Virus record (IMG/VR): IMGVR_UViG_3300027985_000700 | Span: 1-64,000 of that record | Source of the DNA: a virus | Strand: one strand, 5' to 3' | Length of the DNA stretch: 64,000 nt | In this document: positions 4,386 through 54,207 of the stretch, piece by piece | Layout: each line of letters starts with the position of its first letter | Position numbering within the stretch: the first letter of the stretch is position 1 | Translations under genes and position numbers: made by a program | The notes under the pieces: generated by a model | What the model saw: only the letters and a program-made list of their open reading frames with translations | Databases searched by the model: none | Told to the model about the DNA's origin: nothing

Positions 4386-4735
4386 TAGTAAAATTAACTG
4401 TTAATGACAACGACTTTAGCCAATTATTAGAACAATTTATTACCTACGTTTTTAAAGGAAAAATGAGATGTGGGGATATTGAGAAAGATTATAATTTTAT
4501 AACTTTAGGATTAAGATCAGATGAAAAGGAAAATAAAAAAATCATACTTAATTATTTAAAAGAAGTTTTTCCAATTTATCTAAAAAATTATCTATATGAT
4601 GATGTAGAACATACTACAGCTTACTTATTGTCAAATTTTAAAGTATCAATAGTAAATATATTTAATGATAATTTGGATGAAAATGGTGAATGTGTTTACT
4701 ATTTTGTACACCATAATATCTTTATAACTAAATAA
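4382..4735 (+). CDS. Hypothetical protein
   Basis: 117 residues, acidic, alternating hydrophobic segments typical of a small alpha/beta domain. No motif is recognised. Last gene of the coupled cluster that begins with the Clp-like ATPase. Confidence 0.6.
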   Translation: MIVKLTVNDNDFSQLLEQFITYVFKGKMRCGDIEKDYNFITLGLRSDEKENKKIILNYLKEVFPIYLKNYLYDDVEHTTAYLLSNFKVSIVNIFNDNLDENGECVYYFVHHNIFITK

Positions 4736-4945: not shown

Positions 4946-6583
4946 ATGGAATGTACTAAAAACTATATTAGGGATTATAATAAGAAAAAGGAAGAAATTA
5001 ATTTTGTTGATGTAATAAAACTAAATTCCGAGAGTATAACTAACATTGGAATTATTGAAAATAATATAAAAAATCTTCAAAAGGAAATTGTTAATCAAAA
5101 TAATTTATTAAGTGTATTTAATGAAAAAATGTATGAGAAGGATTATACTAAGTTAACTACCCCAACATATATTCATTATAATAATTCGAATTATTATAGT
5201 AACTATTATTATAATAAAGACACAGGGTTAAATGAAAATTCAGATAACATTGTACAAAATGAAGTTAATATTTATAACGTGGAAAAGAAAACTGGATTTA
5301 TAGAAATGGTTGAAGGATATTATTTTGACTTAGGTTGTGTAGTAACTAAAAAATATAAATATCAAATATCCGTAGATTGTTCAACTATTAAACTTACAAT
5401 GACCCACGGCGGTATTTATTCCATTTTTGAAAATAAATTCGCAAGAGTGGATATTAAAACTGGAGAGACTACTGGAGCAGATGAACTAAGGTACTACAAT
5501 GGGAATGCATTAAATATTAAATCAAAAGAATTTATTGACGAACTTTTTGGAGTTGATTACAAAGGTAACCTTACACTTAGTCAACATTTTGATTATTATA
5601 AAAGTAATAAAAGTTATGAAATAATTATTAAAACAGCTCCTAATGAAATAATGGATATATTAATAAAACATAAATATCAAAAAAGTGAACCTATACATAA
5701 ATTATTAGGTATTGAACCAAAAACATATAATAAACTAGTTGAAAATAATTTATTAAGTTTATTTATGGAGTGTAGTGACTTAGTTACCAACCAACAAGTT
5801 AAAGATATTTTAAGTAGACAATGTAATTTAAACATTACAGAAACTGAATGGTTAGATATATTACAAGAGTTTGACAACATGATTAAAGATTTTGAATTCT
5901 TTAATGTAGAGCCTGGATACAATACTTATTCATCTCGTGGTATTTTTGGATATAGAGATGGAATAGAAATAAATAATAAGTTTGTTGCAGAAACAATAGG
6001 TACTTACATAAATGATGACATACATAAATATTATGGTTTAAGAAAATTTATTGAATATGCTAAAAATTCGGTTATAGACCAAGGGTATACTAACCTTCAT
6101 TCATTTCTACACACATTGTCAGATTACCATAGAATGTGTAAAGAAATACAATACAAACCAATCACTTTTAGTAGTTACTTACAACAAACACATGATGTTA
6201 CTTCACGTAACTACCACATTGTAATTGAAGAAAAACAAGAAGAATGGTTTAATGAAAAATATCAAGATGTTAAACAATACAATGGTAATGACAAAGACGA
6301 ATATTTAATTACTTTCCCTAAGTGTAGTGGGGACTTAAAAGAAGAAGGAAGTAAATTAAATCACTGTGTAGCAAGTTATATTAAACGTGTTATAGACGGT
6401 CAATGTTTAATTATGTTTCTAAGGGATAAAAAGAATCCTAATGAAAGTTTAGTTACATTTGAAGTTAGGGATAACAATATTGTTCAAGTAAAAGGTATGC
6501 ATAATAGGAAGCCATTTGAAAACGAAATTAAGTTTTTAACTAAGTATGCAGAAGCAAAGGGTCTTGGGTTACAATTCAATTAA
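4946..6583 (+). CDS. PcfJ-like protein
   Basis: 545 residues from the ATG at 4946, which follows GAGGTAGG; an upstream GTG overlaps the small frame before it. The N-terminal part is Tyr/Asn-rich with no recognised fold. The last ~110 residues carry the PcfJ-like signature: EEGSKLNHCVASY, then an aromatic/basic strand, LVTFEVRDNNIVQ and the KGMHNRKP element. PcfJ-type domains occur on conjugative plasmids and phages; their activity is not established. It stands alone between its promoter and a weak terminator. Confidence 0.75.
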   Translation: MECTKNYIRDYNKKKEEINFVDVIKLNSESITNIGIIENNIKNLQKEIVNQNNLLSVFNEKMYEKDYTKLTTPTYIHYNNSNYYSNYYYNKDTGLNENSDNIVQNEVNIYNVEKKTGFIEMVEGYYFDLGCVVTKKYKYQISVDCSTIKLTMTHGGIYSIFENKFARVDIKTGETTGADELRYYNGNALNIKSKEFIDELFGVDYKGNLTLSQHFDYYKSNKSYEIIIKTAPNEIMDILIKHKYQKSEPIHKLLGIEPKTYNKLVENNLLSLFMECSDLVTNQQVKDILSRQCNLNITETEWLDILQEFDNMIKDFEFFNVEPGYNTYSSRGIFGYRDGIEINNKFVAETIGTYINDDIHKYYGLRKFIEYAKNSVIDQGYTNLHSFLHTLSDYHRMCKEIQYKPITFSSYLQQTHDVTSRNYHIVIEEKQEEWFNEKYQDVKQYNGNDKDEYLITFPKCSGDLKEEGSKLNHCVASYIKRVIDGQCLIMFLRDKKNPNESLVTFEVRDNNIVQVKGMHNRKPFENEIKFLTKYAEAKGLGLQFN

Positions 6584-30171: not shown

Positions 30172-31103
30172 CTAAAATAATGTATTTTGTTTTGGTTTTG
30201 TACCATAAGTACAAACGTTATCTTTTGCTTTTTGTTCTAAGTACTTTATGTTAAATAAAGTTCTCTTCTTGTAGTCTTCACTAAGTTCCTCAATGGTATA
30301 ACCAAACTTATTTACATAACTAGTTATTGCCTTTTGTACTGGTAATGATTGGTTAACAAAGTGTTGTTTTTTGTTGGTACTTTTGTCACTTAATAGTATG
30401 GCACCAAAGTCTGACATTACACCACCATTAGCACTTTGCATAATCCAACTACTTGCGTCTGCACTGTATAATGGAAATTGTGCTATTAAATCAAAGTCTT
30501 GTACCCCTAAGGCATGAACCTTAATATCAGGATTTTTGCTATGTTTAATAATTTCAAATATCTTATGCAACTTAGCAACCTTTTCTGCCTTTGTTTTACC
30601 TACTATATTTCCAATAGCAACTAAATCTACTTTAGGTTCAAAGTTAAGTATATTCTCTAAATACATAGTATTACTACCAGCATGAAATACAGGAACAAGT
30701 TTTTGTGGACTTTTTACTTTACCATACATATATAAAAAGTTTTCCCACGTTTTCTTATTAGCTTCTAAACGTTCCTGACTTGTAGCATTTTTACCCAATC
30801 TGCCTGGTATTGAATCTACTTCCATAAAGTAACGTAAACCATCGTCCCATTTATTAACGTAAGCAATGTATTCATCTATGTCTACACTAACACCACGTGT
30901 CCAAGCAGTGAATGCACCACTATCTAAAAAAGTTAATTTACCTGCTGCACAACGTTTCTCAAATGGTCTTTTATCGTTCCAGTAACTTAATAACCTGTGT
31001 AGGTCTTGTTGGTCTATATACTCGTCAGCTTCAGGACACTGAACCGGACGCCAGCAAAATAAATATTAAAAGGTTTTTTATCTTTTAAATTGTTGCTGTT
31101 CAT
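30172..31103 (-). CDS. dpdA: 7-deazaguanine DNA transglycosylase DpdA, interrupted by a frameshift
   Basis: TGT-like DpdA enzymes exchange guanine in DNA for a 7-deazaguanine base. Seen here: LTFLDSGAF, the catalytic-Asp region, FMEVD, PVFHAG, VAIGNIVG, KVHALGV and SADASSW. The ATG at 31103 opens PFNIYFAGV, but the frame then shifts at 31049-31036: the start frame hits a stop about 10 codons later, while CPEADEY and all the rest lie in another frame. A 5-base hop from GTC to GTT would give FAGVQCPEADEY, a continuous 308-residue protein. If no recoding occurs the gene is broken, or an internal start at 30825 gives a truncated form. It directly follows a GIY-YIG gene. Confidence 0.75.
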
Positions 31104-31108
31104 AATCA

Positions 31109-31801
31109 TCACTCTCCTTTATATTTCCAAATATAACCCAAACCTGTCTTGTTTACACCTTGTAAACACTTACCAATAGTATCAACACAACAATTATTAT
31201 CTTTTGCCGCTTGTACTATACTTGGATAACTATTTAAAAATTTTCCTTCTTTACTATATTGTTCTATTTCTTTACCCATAATTAATTTACAGTTTTTATG
31301 TGCTAGTATTTCTGGTAACAAATAAACCTCGTGTTCATATAACCATACATACCCCTTACATAATATTTTATTACGACAAGCATAATTAATACTATTATAA
31401 TGAACCTTCATTTGTTTGGCAGCTATACCACTACTTTCAAAAATGTTTATTTGGTTACCATTTAAATCGTATTGTAAAACTGTTTTACTTCTTTTGTTGT
31501 CCTTACCACTATTAACAGGACAAGCATCCCCACCTATTGTTGAATTAAAACCTTTATTATAACTATTATATAAATCAACATAGTAAATTTCTTTTTGTTT
31601 TAACTCTTTCATTGTGTTTGCATTATCTATAACTTCCCACGTAAAGTAATCTTTTGGATATTTACTTAGAGCCTTTTGGAATTTGTGGTTCTTTTTAAGG
31701 TCGTAATAATGTTTTTTAATACGTTCTTTTAAGGTATGGGTAGTTATTCCAATATAAACTCTTCCATCTTTATGTGTGCATTTGTAAACAATGCCTTCCA
31801 T
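31109..31801 (-). CDS. GIY-YIG homing endonuclease
   Basis: 230 residues from the ATG at 31801, 7 bases after AAAGGAG. The GIY-YIG domain is intact (IVYKCTHKDGRVYIG, then ERIKKH, FTWEVID and the catalytic-Glu-like LKQKEIYYVDLY). Two NUMOD-type DNA-binding repeats follow (FESSGIAAKQM and YPSIVQAAKDN). It has its own promoter and ends with AAAGGAGAG, which doubles as the ribosome site for dpdA. This cassette-like position matches the HNH gene before queE. Confidence 0.88.
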   Translation of the reverse strand: MEGIVYKCTHKDGRVYIGITTHTLKERIKKHYYDLKKNHKFQKALSKYPKDYFTWEVIDNANTMKELKQKEIYYVDLYNSYNKGFNSTIGGDACPVNSGKDNKRSKTVLQYDLNGNQINIFESSGIAAKQMKVHYNSINYACRNKILCKGYVWLYEHEVYLLPEILAHKNCKLIMGKEIEQYSKEGKFLNSYPSIVQAAKDNNCCVDTIGKCLQGVNKTGLGYIWKYKGE

Positions 31802-31826
31802 ATTATTCTCCTTTCTCATTACTTAA

Positions 31827-39275: not shown

Positions 39276-39381
39276 ATTATTCCTCCCTTTAATAAGTTGT
39301 AGCCCCCCACCAAACTACATAATACTGTACCCATTATTAATGGTTAACTAACCACCATGTCAACAGTATCCCAATAAATTA
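39276..39381 (-). promoter_or_regulatory. Structured leader of the queD/polA operon
   Basis: The ~100-nt leader can fold with ATACTGT paired to ACAGTAT. Inside it GGTTAGTTAACC forms a hairpin that competes with CCATTAATAATGG; a GTAG/CTAC hairpin with a G-rich loop follows. It could be a riboswitch or an operator. It does not match the preQ1 class I pattern as I know it. A TTGACA lies in the leader with TTAATA 17 bp downstream, a possible second, weaker promoter. Confidence 0.4.
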
Positions 39382-39410
39382 ATTATACCACAATCTTGTT
39401 AGAATGTAAA
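39382..39410 (-). promoter_or_regulatory. Sigma-A promoter of the queD/polA/hpt operon
   Basis: TTTACA (39410-39405), 17 bp ending in TGG, TATAAT (39387-39382). Confidence 0.8.
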
Positions 39411-39416
39411 TACTTT

Positions 39417-39545
39417 TTAACAACTTATGAGTTGTTTATATAAATCATAAGCCACACTCCAACCAAGAAATGCAGCAAGTGTTGTAATAAGGGCTATGAC
39501 AATAGCAGCTACCATTACGGCAAACATTTTTTCATCTTCGCTCAT
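39417..39545 (-). CDS. Small single-pass membrane protein
   Basis: 42 residues: acidic start (MSEDEK), hydrophobic helix at about 7-28, short cytosolic tail. AAGGAGGAT lies just upstream of its ATG. Last gene of the queE/folE operon. Function unknown. Confidence 0.6.
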   Translation of the reverse strand: MSEDEKMFAVMVAAIVIALITTLAAFLGWSVAYDLYKQLISC

Positions 39546-39557
39546 ATGTAATCCTCC

Positions 39558-40253: not shown

Positions 40254-41021
40254 TTACACGCCCTGCCTATTACCCCATACCAAAGTATGAAGTTGTAACA
40301 TAACATAAACGTCTTCCATATCACTTTCTAAAACCTTGGTAACAAGTTTTTCATAATCTTGTATTACCCTGTTTCGTACATTTAATATATCTTGTTCCCC
40401 AACGTCAGTGTTACCAACATTTAAGTACAATTTTATACCAGTTCTATTTGTACGTAGTTTAATATCTTGTATTAAGTTATAGTATCTACGAGCAAATTCA
40501 AAATCCTCGTCGTTAAATACTGGTATTTTAATTGTAACAGGTAAATTAAAACGTACTTTAGGATTATACATTAACCAATTACCTACGTTATCAATTACAT
40601 CAGGTTGTCCACTAGATGGTGCTTTTGGGCTAATAACCACATTGTCTACCTTGTCTAGCCAATCAGGTAATTTACTACCTTGTGTTTCAACATCCACTTT
40701 AATGTCAGCTTCATGTAATGCATTAATAACTTTACTAAAGTCATATAAACAAGGGTTACCACCTGTTAGTACAACATTTTTTGTATTTGTGTCTTGACAT
40801 TTAATTATTAATTCAAATAGTAGTTCATCTTCAGTATACACTTTTGTGTCATTATTTCTCTTCCAAGCAAACTTACTATCACACCAACTACAATTAAAAT
40901 CACACCCTACAACTCTAACAAATAAAGTTTTTTTACCTGTGTTAGGACCTTCTCCTTGTATTGTAGGACCTCAACCGAACACTTCGGCAACAGGTATTCT
41001 TACTGTTCTTTCGGTATTCAT
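40254..41021 (-). CDS. queE: 7-carboxy-7-deazaguanine synthase QueE, interrupted by an in-frame TGA
   Basis: Radical SAM enzyme converting carboxytetrahydropterin to 7-carboxy-7-deazaguanine. The ATG at 41021 (SD inside the HNH gene's end; ATGA overlap) encodes VRIPVAEVFG, then TGA at 40973-40971, then GGT and the conserved PTIQGEG in the same frame, with radical-SAM cysteines in GCDFNCSWC. Relatives such as B. subtilis QueE read EIFGPTIQGEG with nothing between G and P. Hopping from the GGT before the stop to the GGT after it would give exactly that, a 253-residue protein. A 5-bp hairpin (CCGAA/TTCGG) ends one base before the TGA. No UGA-reading tRNA was found here. Without recoding, only an N-terminally truncated form from 40841 could be made, lacking the cluster cysteines. 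Confidence 0.8.
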
Positions 41022-41587
41022 ATGTTATCACTCTCCTTTATATGTTTCCACGAACGGTTGTTATAAATATCCCATATAGTAGCATATTTTATATTAGGAT
41101 ACTTTTTACAAACGTCTTTTAAACATATCTTTTTATATTTCATATTTTTAATGTCTTGTACTATATTAACATTAAGTAAACAGGCTGGGTTGTCTACCCC
41201 TAACCGATTACGTAAATGAGTTCGTATAGCGTGTTGTGTATTTTCTTTAGCGGTTACCCATTCTAAGTTGTTAACAAAACAATTATTTTTGTTGCCATCA
41301 ATATGGTTAACCTGTGGTAAATTATCAGGATTTGGTATAAAAGTTTGGGCTACCAATATGTGAACTAAATGTTGTTGTTCCTTACCATCTTTACATAAGG
41401 AAACAACGGGGTATCCGTTAGGTTTAAATGTATTTTTCTTTATAACACCTTTAAACGTACGAAGTCTACCCATACTATCTGTGTAAGTTCTATCAAGACT
41501 TCTTACTGTTCCATAATTAGATATCTCATACCAACCTTCATAGTTAGGAATCGGTTTAAATATTTCTGCTACTGGTATTTTAACCAT
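41018..41587 (-). CDS. NUMOD4/HNH homing endonuclease whose N-terminus copies QueE
   Basis: 189 residues after AAGGAGGAG. The NUMOD4 motif (PNYEGWYEISNYGTVRSL) is followed by an HNH (VAQTFIPNPDNLPQVNHIDGNK at about 82-103 with the N-N-x-x-x-N-LEWVT tail) and a C-terminal helix-turn-helix. Before NUMOD4 it begins VKIPVAEIF, nearly identical to the QueE start VRIPVAEVF encoded downstream but with AT-rich codons. The enzyme therefore probably inserted into queE near codon 15 and queE was rebuilt behind it. Own promoter at 41614. Confidence 0.88.
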   Translation of the reverse strand: MVKIPVAEIFKPIPNYEGWYEISNYGTVRSLDRTYTDSMGRLRTFKGVIKKNTFKPNGYPVVSLCKDGKEQQHLVHILVAQTFIPNPDNLPQVNHIDGNKNNCFVNNLEWVTAKENTQHAIRTHLRNRLGVDNPACLLNVNIVQDIKNMKYKKICLKDVCKKYPNIKYATIWDIYNNRSWKHIKESDNI

Positions 41588-50936: not shown

Positions 50937-51012
50937 TGGTACTCCGTGCGGGATTTGAACCCGCAATTACCACCTTGAAAGGGTGGTGGCTTAACCGTTC
51001 GCCTAACGGAGC
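50937..51012 (-). tRNA. tRNA-Glu(UUC)
   Basis: Loop CTTTCAA on CCACC/GGTGG, acceptor GCTCCGT/ACGGAGT, CCA encoded. Confidence 0.9.
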
Positions 51013-51017
51013 AATTA

Positions 51018-51094
51018 TGGTACACCCTGTAAGACTCGAACTTACGACCTTCTGCTTGTAGAACAGATGCGCTAACCAACTGTGCTAAGGGTGC
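51018..51094 (-). tRNA. tRNA-Val(UAC)
   Basis: Loop TCTACAA, acceptor GCACCCT/AGGGTGT, A73, CCA encoded. Confidence 0.9.
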
Positions 51095-51205
51095 ATGACG
51101 TGGCTTCTTTATTTGTGTACCTTTATTACAGGGTATTCGATGTACCCACCTGAAGCCGATCCCCACTTCATCTAGTTTATGTACGGGGGATTTATTTTTA
51201 ATTTA
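51095..51205 (-). other. Spacer with a minimal tRNA-like hairpin pair
   Basis: Between tRNA-Val and tRNA-Arg. GGCTTC pairs with GAAGCC at the ends of a ~56-nt segment that encloses a 5-bp stem with 7-base loop (GGGTA, CATCGAA, TACCC), which looks like an anticodon arm without D- and T-arms. A second hairpin (GATCCCC/GGGGGAT) follows. Function unknown. Confidence 0.3.
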
Positions 51206-51282
51206 TGGTGTATCTGAAGGGACTCGAACCCATAATCTTTTGGTTCGTAGCCAAGTGCTTTATCCAGTTAAGCTACAGATAC
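51206..51282 (-). tRNA. tRNA-Arg(ACG)
   Basis: Loop CTACGAA, acceptor GTATCTG/CAGATAC, CCA encoded. A34 would need host TadA to become inosine. Confidence 0.9.
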
Positions 51283-51285
51283 ATA

Positions 51286-51399
51286 TTAACCACGTTTTTT
51301 CTTTTTATTAGTTTTACCTTTACTAGTAGTAGTTGCTATTTTAGCAAAGTGTGCACTAAACTTTTCTTGTTTGTGTTTACTACCTTTTCCTTTTGCCAT
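51286..51399 (-). CDS. Small basic protein
   Basis: 37 residues, about one third Lys/Arg (MAKGKGSKHK start, NKKKKRG end), after AAGGAGTG. Located between tRNA genes. It may bind RNA, but this is only composition. Confidence 0.55.
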   Translation of the reverse strand: MAKGKGSKHKQEKFSAHFAKIATTTSKGKTNKKKKRG

Positions 51400-51423
51400 A
51401 TTAATCACTCCTTAATTATATAA

Positions 51424-51500
51424 TGGTGCGCCACCGAAGACTCGAACTTCGGACCTCTCACGTATCAGGCGAGTACTCTAACCAACTGAGTTAATGGCGC
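51424..51500 (-). tRNA. tRNA-Ile(GAU)
   Basis: Loop CTGATAC, acceptor GCGCCAT/GTGGCGC, CCA encoded. Confidence 0.9.
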
Positions 51501-51503
51501 AAG

Positions 51504-51578
51504 TGGTGCATCCAGAAAGATTCGAACTTTCAACCTCTACATTAAAAGTGTATTATTCTACCATTGAATTATGGATGC
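51504..51578 (-). tRNA. tRNA-Lys(UUU)
   Basis: Loop CTTTTAA, acceptor GCATCCA/TGGATGC, CCA encoded. Confidence 0.9.
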
Positions 51579-51579
51579 G

Positions 51580-51747
51580 TTATGTATCTTGTGCACCCTT
51601 ATACTTTCGTTTTCTAGGTATTAGATACTTTAATGACTTATGTACTTTACCACCCTTCATGACTTGTTCTTGATGCCATAAATTGGGTAACTTAGCATAA
51701 TCTATTTTGTTTGTAGGTAATTTTATAACTTGTTTTTTCTTACTCAT
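51580..51747 (-). CDS. Small basic protein
   Basis: 55 residues, Lys-rich (MSKKKQVIKL start; PRKRKYKG near the end), after GAGGTGA. Second basic mini-protein in the tRNA array. Unknown function. Confidence 0.55.
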   Translation of the reverse strand: MSKKKQVIKLPTNKIDYAKLPNLWHQEQVMKGGKVHKSLKYLIPRKRKYKGAQDT

Positions 51748-51770
51748 TTTAATCACCTCTTATATATTTA

Positions 51771-51846
51771 TGGTGGAGAATAAGGGACTCGAACCCTTGA
51801 CCTACTGCGTGCAAGGCAGTTGTTCTACCAGCTGAACTAATTCCCC
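51771..51846 (-). tRNA. tRNA-Ala(UGC)
   Basis: Loop CTTGCAC, acceptor GGGGAAT/ATTCTCC, CCA encoded. Confidence 0.93.
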
Positions 51847-51850
51847 ATAA

Positions 51851-51928
51851 TGGTCGGGATAGAGGGATTCGAACCCCCAACGCCTCCGCTCCAAACGGAG
51901 AGTTCTACCAAATTGAATCTACATCCCG
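51851..51928 (-). tRNA. tRNA-Pro(UGG)
   Basis: Loop TTTGGAG on CTCCG/CGGAG, acceptor CGGGATG/TATCCCG, CCA encoded. Confidence 0.9.
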
Positions 51929-51952
51929 ATATAGTTAGTTAAATAAAATATG

Positions 51953-52234
51953 CTATCTTATTCTTTCTATTGTTTGACCTTGGTTGTTTAATAAAAATAC
52001 TCCTGCATACAAACTTGGTCTACTTTCTTTGTCTAATATTTTAAGTTCTACTTCTTCATCAGTTGGTATTCTATTTAATGGTAATGTATATAATAATTCC
52101 TTACTTCTATACATATTTATAAAATCCCTATTTGACGCATCTGTAAATGTGTTTACATTATCTATATCGGCATATATGTGCTTATGTCCATCTATAGACA
52201 ATCCTTTACTATATTCAACTAATTCTACTATCAT
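51953..52234 (-). CDS. Hypothetical protein inside the tRNA array
   Basis: 93 residues, acidic, predicted alpha/beta. Ribosome site AAGAGATAAG is weak. A short direct repeat of CTAT/CTAA units lies just upstream. Function unknown. Confidence 0.55.
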   Translation of the reverse strand: MIVELVEYSKGLSIDGHKHIYADIDNVNTFTDASNRDFINMYRSKELLYTLPLNRIPTDEEVELKILDKESRPSLYAGVFLLNNQGQTIERIR

Positions 52235-52280
52235 TCTATCTTATCTCTTTTCTATCTAACTATCTATCTAACTAACTATT

Positions 52281-52357
52281 TGGTGCCAGTAACAGGACTT
52301 GAACCTATAATCCCACGGGTATGAACCGTGTGCATTAACCATTTGTGCTATACTGGC
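52281..52357 (-). tRNA. tRNA-Met(CAU), elongator type
   Basis: Loop TTCATAC, acceptor GCCAGTA/TACTGGC, CCA encoded. It could be elongator Met or, if lysidine-modified, Ile(CAU); the separate initiator is at 52439. Confidence 0.85.
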
Positions 52358-52360
52358 ATT

Positions 52361-52434
52361 TGGTTGCAGTTGCTAGGATTCCAACCTAGTATCTTCCTAT
52401 AACGAGGCGTGCGTGCATCACACTCTCAACTACA
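52361..52434 (-). ncRNA. Degenerate tRNA-like RNA
   Basis: Good acceptor (TGTAGTT/AACTGCA), A73 and CCA, and a T-stem (CTAGG/CCTAG), but the T-loop is TTGGAAT instead of TTCGAAT. The D domain is shortened and no normal 5-bp/7-base anticodon arm forms (CCT, CGTTAT, AGG at best). Anticodon not assignable. Confidence 0.45.
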
Positions 52435-52438
52435 TATA

Positions 52439-52514
<76 letters not shown>

Positions 52515-52521
52515 ATATAAT

Positions 52522-52598
52522 TGGTACTCGTTGATGGACTTGAACCACCGACCGCTCGCGTATAAGGCGTTTACTCTAACCAACTGAGCTAAACGAGC
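52522..52598 (-). tRNA. tRNA-Ile(UAU)
   Basis: Loop CTTATAC, acceptor GCTCGTT/AACGAGT, CCA encoded. Reads AUA, abundant in this genome. No sense-codon conflict seen. Confidence 0.88.
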
Positions 52599-52670
52599 AA
52601 TTAGCGTACCACTTTGATATAAGGTCCAAAATGTTTCCAACTGTAAACTCCCTATGGGTTACCATAATTT

Positions 52671-52753
52671 TTGAACTGGGGAGGACTCGAACCTCCATAC
52701 CCAAACTTGTTGTGTTGTACGTACAACGCTTTTCCAATTAAGCTACCTGTTCA
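52671..52753 (-). ncRNA. tRNA-like RNA without encoded CCA
   Basis: Acceptor TGAACAG/CAGTTCA, D-arm (AGCTTAATTGGAAAAGC) and T-arm (GGAGG, TTCGAGT, CCTCC) are normal. The anticodon region is a near-palindrome (GTTGTACGTACAAC) that leaves no standard 7-base loop; a 9-base loop between GTTGT and ACAAC is the alternative. CCA is not encoded, so the phage CCA-adding enzyme would be needed. Confidence 0.5.
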
Positions 52754-52759
52754 TATAAT

Positions 52760-52832
52760 TGGTGGAGTCATTAGGATTCTAACCTAAATTGAAGGCAACG
52801 CGTGACTTACTTCTAGTAACATACTTTTCCCC
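52760..52832 (-). ncRNA. Degenerate tRNA-like RNA
   Basis: Ends in CCA with a T-stem (TTAGG/CCTAA) and altered T-loop TTAGAAT; only four acceptor pairs (GGGG/CTCC). D and anticodon arms are not recognisable; a TTACTAGAAGTAA hairpin occupies their place. Confidence 0.4.
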
Positions 52833-52840
52833 ATATAAAT

Positions 52841-52941
52841 TGGTGCGGACGGGAGGGATCGAACCTCCAAACTTGTGTACTTAAAGCCTGCCTTAAAAGT
52901 CATGAACAATTAAGGGTGTATACCCATTTCACCACGACCGC
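52841..52941 (-). ncRNA. tRNA-like RNA with enlarged anticodon loop
   Basis: 101 nt: acceptor GCGGTCG/CGTCCGC (one mismatch), CCA encoded, T-arm GGAGG, TTCGATC, CCTCC. The anticodon-position stem CCTTAA/TTAAGG closes a 13-base loop (TTGTTCATGACTT) instead of seven, and the variable region is long. No amino acid assigned. Confidence 0.5.
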
Positions 52942-53587
52942 ATTTTGTGTTACCTCACTTGTTTTTTAAAAGGTTATAGAGTAACTATTTACTGTTATTT
53001 CCCTTTAGTACCTTATAGGCACTGTACTAAATAATACATTAAAGTTTTAAATTAATCATTACGCTTAGATTAATTCTTTGCGTTATGGCAGGTATCTCCA
53101 TTTGTATTTATCAGCTTAACAAATAAAATAAAAATAACTTTTACCCGCTGTATTTTTATATTTTATTTAGTACACTAACTACAAGAGTTAATGTGTATAG
53201 TAATGCCTCGGACTCATTACTAAATTTCCTACACTAAGGTATTACCTTAGACCGAGTAGCATATTGTAGAGTTATTAACTCCTTTGTAAGATGTAAACAT
53301 ATTGCAATGTTTTATGTTTTTAGTCAGCTGTTTTACAAATATTAAACATAAACTCATACATCTTACAAAGCAAAGAACAATTTTATTTGCTCTTGGCGGG
53401 GCAGTAGGATTTTACCTACCGTTAGTATTACTACTAACACCTTTGTCCCCCGCCAGCAACAAACAAATGTTGCCCCTAGTTTACAGGTTATACGCTTCCT
53501 CTGTTGTAGCTCATTCTGCGTTAACCATAATTTCGGTCGATACTTTGCTACAAGGGTTTACCAGCATCTTTCCCTTAATTTTTAATA
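52942..53587 (-). ncRNA. Second large structured noncoding RNA (~650 nt) inside the tRNA array
   Basis: No gene is supported here, but base-pairing is dense on the minus strand. TGGCGGGG pairs with CCCCGCCA around two inner hairpins (TTAGTAGTAATACTAA and TAGGTAAAATCCTA, near 53395-53455). TTGTAAGATGTA pairs with TACATCTTACAA (53284-53372). CTAAGGTAATACCTTAG (near 53235) and AATTAATCTAAGCGTAATGATTAATT (near 53050) are further hairpins. GC content in the stems exceeds the surroundings. Location beside tRNAs and size fit ornate phage RNAs such as ROOL or GOLLD, but I cannot confirm a family. Confidence 0.5.
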
Positions 53588-53677
53588 TGGCGCCAGGAGA
53601 GGGATTCGAACCCGCAGTACGCTTTCACGTACACTGGTTTTCAAGACCAGCTCTTTCACCAATTCAGACATCCTGGC
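53588..53677 (-). tRNA. tRNA-Ser(UGA)
   Basis: Loop CTTGAAA, class II variable arm, acceptor GCCAGGA/TCCTGGC, G73, CCA encoded. Confidence 0.92.
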
Positions 53678-53838
53678 ATCTCTTCGCCAAGGAACCTTTG
53701 TAAGTCACGTTTTTGTCTTGTTCTTACATAGCCACTTCCCATATTACGCTCACGTTTTCTATTTTTTGTATTTCTTCCGTGACCAAAGGCTGAGTAACAA
53801 CCAAGTACTTTTTTAACGTAACTATTTTTTGTTTTCAT
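53656..53838 (-). CDS. Small basic protein overlapping tRNA-Ser
   Basis: 60 residues from the ATG at 53838 after AAAGGAGG. Very Arg/Lys-rich (GRNTKNRKRERN, YVRTRQKRDLQRF). Its last codons run 22 bases into the tRNA-Ser gene, so processing of the tRNA would remove its stop codon. Third basic mini-protein in the array. Confidence 0.55.
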   Translation of the reverse strand: MKTKNSYVKKVLGCYSAFGHGRNTKNRKRERNMGSGYVRTRQKRDLQRFLGEEMPGCLNW

Positions 53839-53880
53839 GTAAATTACCTCCTTTAGAAGATAATCACACCCTTTCGTTAT

Positions 53881-53955
53881 TGGTTGGAAAGGTGGGAATC
53901 GAACCCACATGCTTAGATTCACAATCTAATACGTTAACCATTACGTCACTAACCA
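53881..53955 (-). tRNA. tRNA-His(GUG)
   Basis: Loop TTGTGAA on TTAGA/TCTAA, T-arm GTGGG, TTCGATT, CCCAC, CCA encoded. Two mismatches in the middle of the acceptor stem are unusual. Confidence 0.82.
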
Positions 53956-53956
53956 C

Positions 53957-54131
53957 ATATTGGAGTCAGGTTTATTTCTGCACTTGGAAAACCCTTCACG
54001 AAAACCATCCAAAAATTTTTACATAAAGCTCAACGCCCTATATTGCGATTTAACCGAATCGACATCAGTACTTTATAATTTATTAAATCTTTGTATCTTC
54101 AATGGAATAATGAGTTCCACTTGTTGTTAAT
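53957..54131 (-). other. Spacer without a recognised gene
   Basis: 175 bases. A hairpin CGATT/AATCG and a TGGA/TCCA pairing of its ends are visible, but no cloverleaf or gene can be supported. Confidence 0.4.
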
Positions 54132-54207
54132 TGGAGAAAGTGATGGGATTCGAACCCACGTAATCTGCTTGGAAGGCAGATAGACTAGACCACTGTCCTA
54201 CACTCTC
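54132..54207 (-). tRNA. tRNA-Gly(UCC)
   Basis: Loop CTTCCAA, acceptor GAGAGTG/CACTTTC, U73 as expected, CCA encoded. First RNA after the array promoter. Confidence 0.92.

Follow-up and report, generated by a model that had tools for sequence, protein, structure and literature searches.

The stretch of DNA analysed here (the window, 64,000 nucleotides) is part of a virus record of 108,396 bases with about 30% G+C. The record holds a gene set of the 7-deazaguanine type, composed of FolE, QueD, QueE and QueC together with a DpdA-like gene; in some phages the same set serves 7-deazaguanine DNA modification (e.g. PMC6884629). The sequences of folE, queD and queC are intact. The gap between folE and queD (39276-39557) contains a hydrophobic ORF of 43 residues and, ahead of queD, a promoter-like leader that may form hairpins. 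A broken gene was considered for this gap and rejected, as only the small ORF and the leader are present.

The interrupted start of queE

The queE gene lies on the minus strand. From the ATG (41021-41019) it reads MNTERTVRIPVAEVFG and reaches a GGT (40976-40974), a TGA (40973-40971) and a second GGT (40970-40968). Past the TGA, the frame remains open for 238 codons, up to the stop at 40256-40254. This downstream part (40254-40970, minus strand, GPTIQGEG onwards) is QueE, with matches to the family PHROG phrog_2076 (E 1e-38) and to the B. subtilis QueE structure 5tgs (E 8e-44). The reading VAEVFG-TGA-GPTIQGEG is a 6-nt insertion in comparison with the relatives, in which the F directly precedes GPTIQGEG. 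The initial annotation had described GGT-TGA-GGT in place of one conserved glycine codon, with no change of phase. This description was borne out: the codon, the stop and the same codon again stand where the relatives have one glycine, and the TGA insertion is confirmed as real.

A hairpin of 5 bp with a 3-base loop (CCGAA-GTG-TTCGG) ends one base before the TGA, exactly as first described. At the codon usage of the phage, about 1.1% of synonymous recodings would produce this hairpin (a post hoc figure), and the fold of the 161-nt region is not unusual (z -1.1).

The earliest ordinary in-frame start after the TGA is a GTG at 40841, where the initial annotation had placed an ATG. Ribosomes could terminate and reinitiate just after the TGA, at an AUA seven nt after GAGG, and make a QueE without its first residues. 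The UGAGGU is Shine-Dalgarno-like and suitably spaced for this purpose, but AUA initiates very poorly, GPT would be missing from the product and the first ordinary start, the GTG, already lies past the cysteine motif. As reinitiation also leaves the second affected gene, dpdA, unexplained, it is very improbable.

The inserted cassette and its homing endonuclease

The gene upstream of queE (41018-41587, minus strand) encodes a homing endonuclease with NUMOD4 and HNH_3 domains (Pfam E 4e-15 and 7e-8, respectively; PHROG phrog_59, E 1e-50), and its stop overlaps the queE start codon (ATGA). The N-terminus of the protein is MVKIPVAEIFKPIPNYEGWYEIS. In other phages, the HNH homologues start with EIWKPI..YEG or a little ahead of it and have no MVKIPVA-type extension, so that MVKIPVA is foreign to the HNH gene. 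The first ten codons of this gene (MVKIPVAEIF, 41558-41587, minus strand) are the original 5' end of queE, to which the endonuclease is fused in frame. In this upstream copy, the DNA of KIPVAEIF is identical at 22 of 24 nt to the empty allele of the closest relative, L001, whose uninterrupted queE reads ATGAAAATTCCAGTAGCAGAGATATTT continued by GGTCCCACAATACAAGGAGAG; the second copy matches at 15 of 24. Given the match of the upstream copy, the ancestral queE was split between TTT and GGT by a cassette of 587 nt (40971-41557, minus strand), as delimited against the uninterrupted queE of L001 and other relatives.

The cassette comprises the endonuclease, its own Shine-Dalgarno AAAGGAGAG (41031-41039), an ATG, a second and differently coded QueE start, and a terminal GGT-TGA at the seam. 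The second start (40974-41021) keeps the peptide (KIPVAEIF becomes RIPVAEVF), yet it differs from the first copy at 7 of 24 nt, so it was not copied recently from the start that the phage already had. An endonuclease domain, insertion at a conserved site and uninterrupted alleles in L001 and other relatives are thus found together. At the upstream joint, the EIF common to the QueE start and the NUMOD4 start may have acted as microhomology. The arrangement indicates that a selfish DNA-cutting gene inserted into the start of queE, with a rebuilt start and a stop placed exactly at the seam. Neither the position of the stop, at the seam of an inserted cassette, nor the QueE origin of the first codons of the upstream gene had been recognised in the initial annotation.

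The same fusion cassette was sought elsewhere, and the fusion patterns matched only unrelated frames. A match to the HNH of the queE cassette occurs in one of nine related records, on another contig; the HNH relative L005 was rejected as the same cassette, being without the QueE extension. A third NUMOD4-like gene of the record (83999-84304) was likewise rejected as a further case, with no seam nearby.

The insert could also be removed from the RNA as a group I intron extending from TTT/AAACCG to TTGA/GGTCCT, which would splice the original MVKIPVAEIF to GPTIQGEG and give a perfect QueE from the ligated product. In the relatives G008 and G010, likely group I introns with GIY-YIG genes are present in other genes, and Rfam missed them; the lack of an Rfam match in the queE insert is consequently weak on its own. 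A stronger argument is the terminal base, which the exact exon join makes an A and which in group I introns is a G. In addition, the ORF fills the cassette and leaves nearly no non-coding room, no core motif was detected, the second in-frame QueE start and its Shine-Dalgarno would be left unexplained, and the original 5' end of dpdA is not seen upstream of the dpdA endonuclease. The intron was rejected for its missing core, its wrong end and the absent Rfam match, and is hardly credible. Among the loci collected, apparent group I introns without an Rfam match occur in L197 (1300-2360), where a GIY-YIG gene interrupts a metallophosphoesterase-like gene, and in L198 (1345-2340), where one interrupts a DNA polymerase A gene.

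The queE site in relatives

An anchored scan of fetched viral, bacterial and phage loci (160-odd related loci) required the GPTxQGEG motif, so that queE genes diverging inside the motif fall outside its scope. In all the matches listed, the residue directly before the motif is F, rarely Y or L. Four loci outside the anchor pattern (L015, L089, L019 and L020), read separately, have no insert at this site. A search of 2.9 million viral contigs for FG-NNN-GPTIQGE, excluding the record of the window itself, gave no match. The search of relatives for the same insertion that the initial annotation had called for therefore returned none, either among the matches listed or in the viral contigs. No near-identical phage DNA was found in the phage collection.

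The resident queE has dN/dS values of 0.18-0.36 against relatives (for L015 and L089 the synonymous sites are saturated and the ratio is not computable), and relative to L001 it shows no clear excess of unique changes. These values point to past constraint, with which a recent loss is compatible.

Some of these loci have features of their own. The queE genes of L015 and L089 (3001-3684) contain 7 and 9 in-frame stops. One of these stops, a TAG, takes the place of the Q in GPTIQGEG, and the pattern points to phages in which TAG is read as glutamine; L089 is located in an Acholeplasmatales MAG. In L020 (1397-1969, on the contig of L194), an HNH gene lies between queE and folE and overlaps the queE stop without damage. 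In L001, both queD and the end of queE seem to contain single-base errors (4600-4610 and 5680-5690), a caution on the quality of that contig.

The second junction, at dpdA

The PHROG match of dpdA (phrog_887, E 2e-27) covers only the interior of the gene, and its upstream region was therefore examined. On the minus strand, a homing endonuclease gene with GIY-YIG and NUMOD1 domains (31109-31819; Pfam E 4e-7 and 2e-16, respectively) is followed by ATATAAAGGAGAGTGAT, a Shine-Dalgarno as at the rebuilt queE, an ATG, the rebuilt 5' end MNSNNLKDKKPFNIYFAGV (31047-31103, delimited against the relatives L186 and L194) and the resident gene. The latter runs from GTT (VQCPEADEY...) to the stop (30172-31044), as placed by phrog_887 and an uninterrupted relative, and is out of frame with the rebuilt start. 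At the seam the sequence leaves the frame, GGC GTC CG GTT CAG TGT CCT GAA, where the CG (31045-31046) and the next G form the codon CGG. The uninterrupted genes read MGKFNTYYAGIQCPEA (L186) and MAKFNTYYAGVQCPEA (L194), both without the 5 nt. The corresponding DNA is ...TAT GCC GGG ATA CAG TGT CCT in L186, whose protein is 66% identical, and ...TAT GCA GGT GTT CAG TGT CCT in L194. One family codon has become two synonymous codons separated by a short gap (GTC-CG-GTT). CGG is the rarest sense codon of the phage (6 of 27,126 codons), and GTC makes up 1.2% of its valine codons. Upstream of the dpdA endonuclease, no trace of the gene's original 5' end was seen, and hence the limits of the insertion are less certain here than at queE.

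Both cassettes follow one design: endonuclease, Shine-Dalgarno, ATG, rebuilt 5' end, codon pair and resident gene. At both seams one family codon is written twice, synonymously, with 2-3 nt between. A shared recognition sequence was rejected, as random pairs are as similar as the queE and dpdA junctions in a fraction of 0.11, and the common Shine-Dalgarno is a weak mark of the cassettes, a near-identical one being present at a structural-region gene at 76955 of the record.

An error of assembly or sequencing, or a mixture of strains at the seams, might produce such anomalies. The record is a single virus contig, and indel errors seem to be present in queD and in the terminal part of queE of L001, the closest relative. 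However, random base errors would not be expected to take the form of a 6-nt in-frame and a 5-nt insert, each exactly at an endonuclease seam, and the 108-kb record shows no further convincing interruption, which makes an error improbable.

Stop codon usage and tRNA genes

TGA, TAG and TAA are each used as ordinary stops, and 12 genes terminate in TGA. A stop screen of the 108-kb record, which missed the queE TGA itself on account of the short upstream stretch and so has low sensitivity to short 5' parts, gave no second convincing in-frame TGA, and none of the same-frame neighbours that it listed made a convincing case of another interrupted gene. A general reassignment of UGA to an amino acid was rejected, TGA and TAG being ordinary stops here. 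ARAGORN detects 25 tRNA genes in the window (48115-54207), with none for tryptophan and none able to read UGA. The initial annotation had credited the phage with a tRNA-Trp with a CCA anticodon, but ARAGORN finds none in the window or in the remainder of the record, and thus no CCA or UCA tRNA. A suppressor tRNA of the phage for UGA was rejected on the same search.

UGA is the leakiest stop in bacteria, and the queE frame continues in phase past it. Readthrough, e.g. by the host tRNA-Trp, would give VAEVFG-W-GPTIQGEG, and dpdA would then require an independent -1 frameshift or be lost. On the other hand, readthrough adds two residues right before the conserved GPTxQGEG motif. Such a QueE occurs in none of the 2.9 million viral contigs and in none of the relatives listed; simple readthrough to a normal enzyme is disfavoured by this absence of any viral QueE with an FG-X-G insertion in the collection. 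The out-of-frame dpdA is not restorable by readthrough, and no phage tRNA for Trp or UGA was found. Readthrough is accordingly given little credence.

Two readings of the seams

The sequences leave the phage, probably, either hopping its ribosomes over both seams or having lost both enzymes. The leading mechanism, to which a probability of roughly 0.4 is assigned, is the production of full-length QueE and DpdA by ribosomal hops over the cassette seams. The homing-endonuclease cassette entered queE where the conserved GPTIQGEG motif begins, and on this reading the endonuclease took the promoter, the ribosome-binding site and the start codon of queE. The cassette gives queE a new ribosome-binding site, a new start and recoded first residues. 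With UGA in the A site, the peptidyl-tRNA-Gly would leave GGU and re-pair with the GGU six bases on, after which translation would resume and the product would be exactly VAEVFGPTIQGEG. DpdA would be obtained through a matching +5 hop, from GUC to GUU, over the slow CGG codon. A more tentative proposition is that minimal hops of this kind, +6 across a stop and +5 across a rare codon, allow two genes to be expressed after homing-endonuclease cassettes had captured and rebuilt their starts.

The 6-nt hop from GGT to GGT, proposed by the initial annotation, remains the best geometric fit. It is strengthened by the like-built junction at dpdA and by the homing-endonuclease context, which is also that of T4 gene 60; it stands as a candidate rather than a demonstrated event. 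At both genes, the family sequence is recovered exactly once one codon and the gap are taken out. The A-site codon after take-off is a stop (UGA) in queE and the rarest sense codon (CGG) in dpdA. Also in favour of hopping are the uninterrupted resident queE, which evolves as its relatives do, the intact folE, queD and queC, and the ordinary use of UGA and UAG as stops, with no other convincing interruption in the stop screen. The insertion, both copies of the 5' end, the endonuclease domains, the empty alleles of relatives and the second junction are shown; we infer that the proteins are produced, that hopping is the route and that the level is useful. Stop-hops without stimulators are inefficient. 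The queE stop comes after no more than 16 codons and the dpdA shift after 19, so that the nascent-peptide stimulator of T4 gene 60 cannot be present. The lack of significant sequence similarity between the two junctions is a further point against hopping.

A serious though less probable rival is an inactivating repair scar. Under it, imprecise joining after cleavage would have left a trace of 5-6 nt at each seam; both queE and dpdA would be dead, and the modification pathway would be inactive or disappearing. The scar is made a serious rival by the stop at the seam of an inserted cassette and by the upstream gene that begins with the original QueE start. Each anomaly sits exactly at a cassette seam and each breaks the reading frame. 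Since queE and dpdA serve the same dispensable pathway, their joint loss would fit, and this counts against hopping. The original 5' copy, nearly as in L001 (22 of 24 nt), suggests a recent insertion; if the insertions are recent, the intact resident frames are uninformative on present function. In another phage the HNH gene between queE and folE is harmless, so that a broken neighbour is no rule. Against a scar, random joins need not leave one synonymous codon pair twice, nor the rarest codon behind. Rebuilt starts, each equipped with a Shine-Dalgarno, would make no sense unless the genes had at some time been expressed while carrying the cassette, and the remaining genes of the pathway are intact. 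The weights given to hopping and to the scar are judgements on two seams, with the dpdA pattern noticed post hoc.

Natural bypassing is known in very few places. Should hopping be true, T4 gene 60 would no longer be near-solitary, and homing cassettes would become a repeated source of bypassed inserts, here with the smallest gap. The phage would then provide a natural in-frame stop-hop and a class of cassettes whose damage is mended in translation. Should the genes be dead, endonuclease cassettes would be able to switch off a phage DNA-modification pathway in two strokes. Either reading carries a warning for annotation, as the upstream HNH gene opens with the start of another gene.

Comparison with known bypassing and homing systems

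The queE seam shares with T4 gene 60/mobA the matched glycine codons for take-off and landing, the stop directly after take-off and an insert tied to the disruption of the host gene by an HNH homing endonuclease. Of the likeness to T4 gene 60 first pointed out, the glycines and the stop hold. A 2016 review (PMC5009743) places the nascent-peptide stimulator about 25-30 residues upstream, and the queE 5' end, 16 codons including take-off, is too short for it. The insert of T4 gene 60 has 50 nt, in contrast to a 3-nt gap (a hop of 6) in queE. Furthermore, the queE cassette rebuilds the gene start and a second gene, dpdA, has the same design, although with a synonymous GTC/GTT pair and the rare sense codon CGG instead of a stop after take-off. 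The same review links the bypassed insert of T4 gene 60 to protection from a homing endonuclease, lays weight on slow codons in the A site and refers to studies of hops by +5 and +6.

The synthetic stop-hops (Weiss et al. 1987, as reviewed in PMC5009743) resemble queE in that a codon, a stop and an identical codon, nine nt in all, yield one amino acid. Those were engineered reporters, whereas queE is a natural gene with a proposed hop; according to the review, no natural in-frame stop-hop was known. The byps of Magnusiomyces capitatus mitochondria are likewise short inserts in several genes of one genome, tolerated through bypassing. They number 81 and concern mitochondrial genes and ribosomes, and the passage of the review on them describes no adjacent endonuclease with a rebuilt 5' end. 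In the nrdA of Aeh1 (PMC2988022), the free-standing endonuclease gene mobE also lies within a conserved and functionally critical site. There, the interrupted gene gives two working subunits, whereas queE has received a recoded copy in place of its displaced 5' end.
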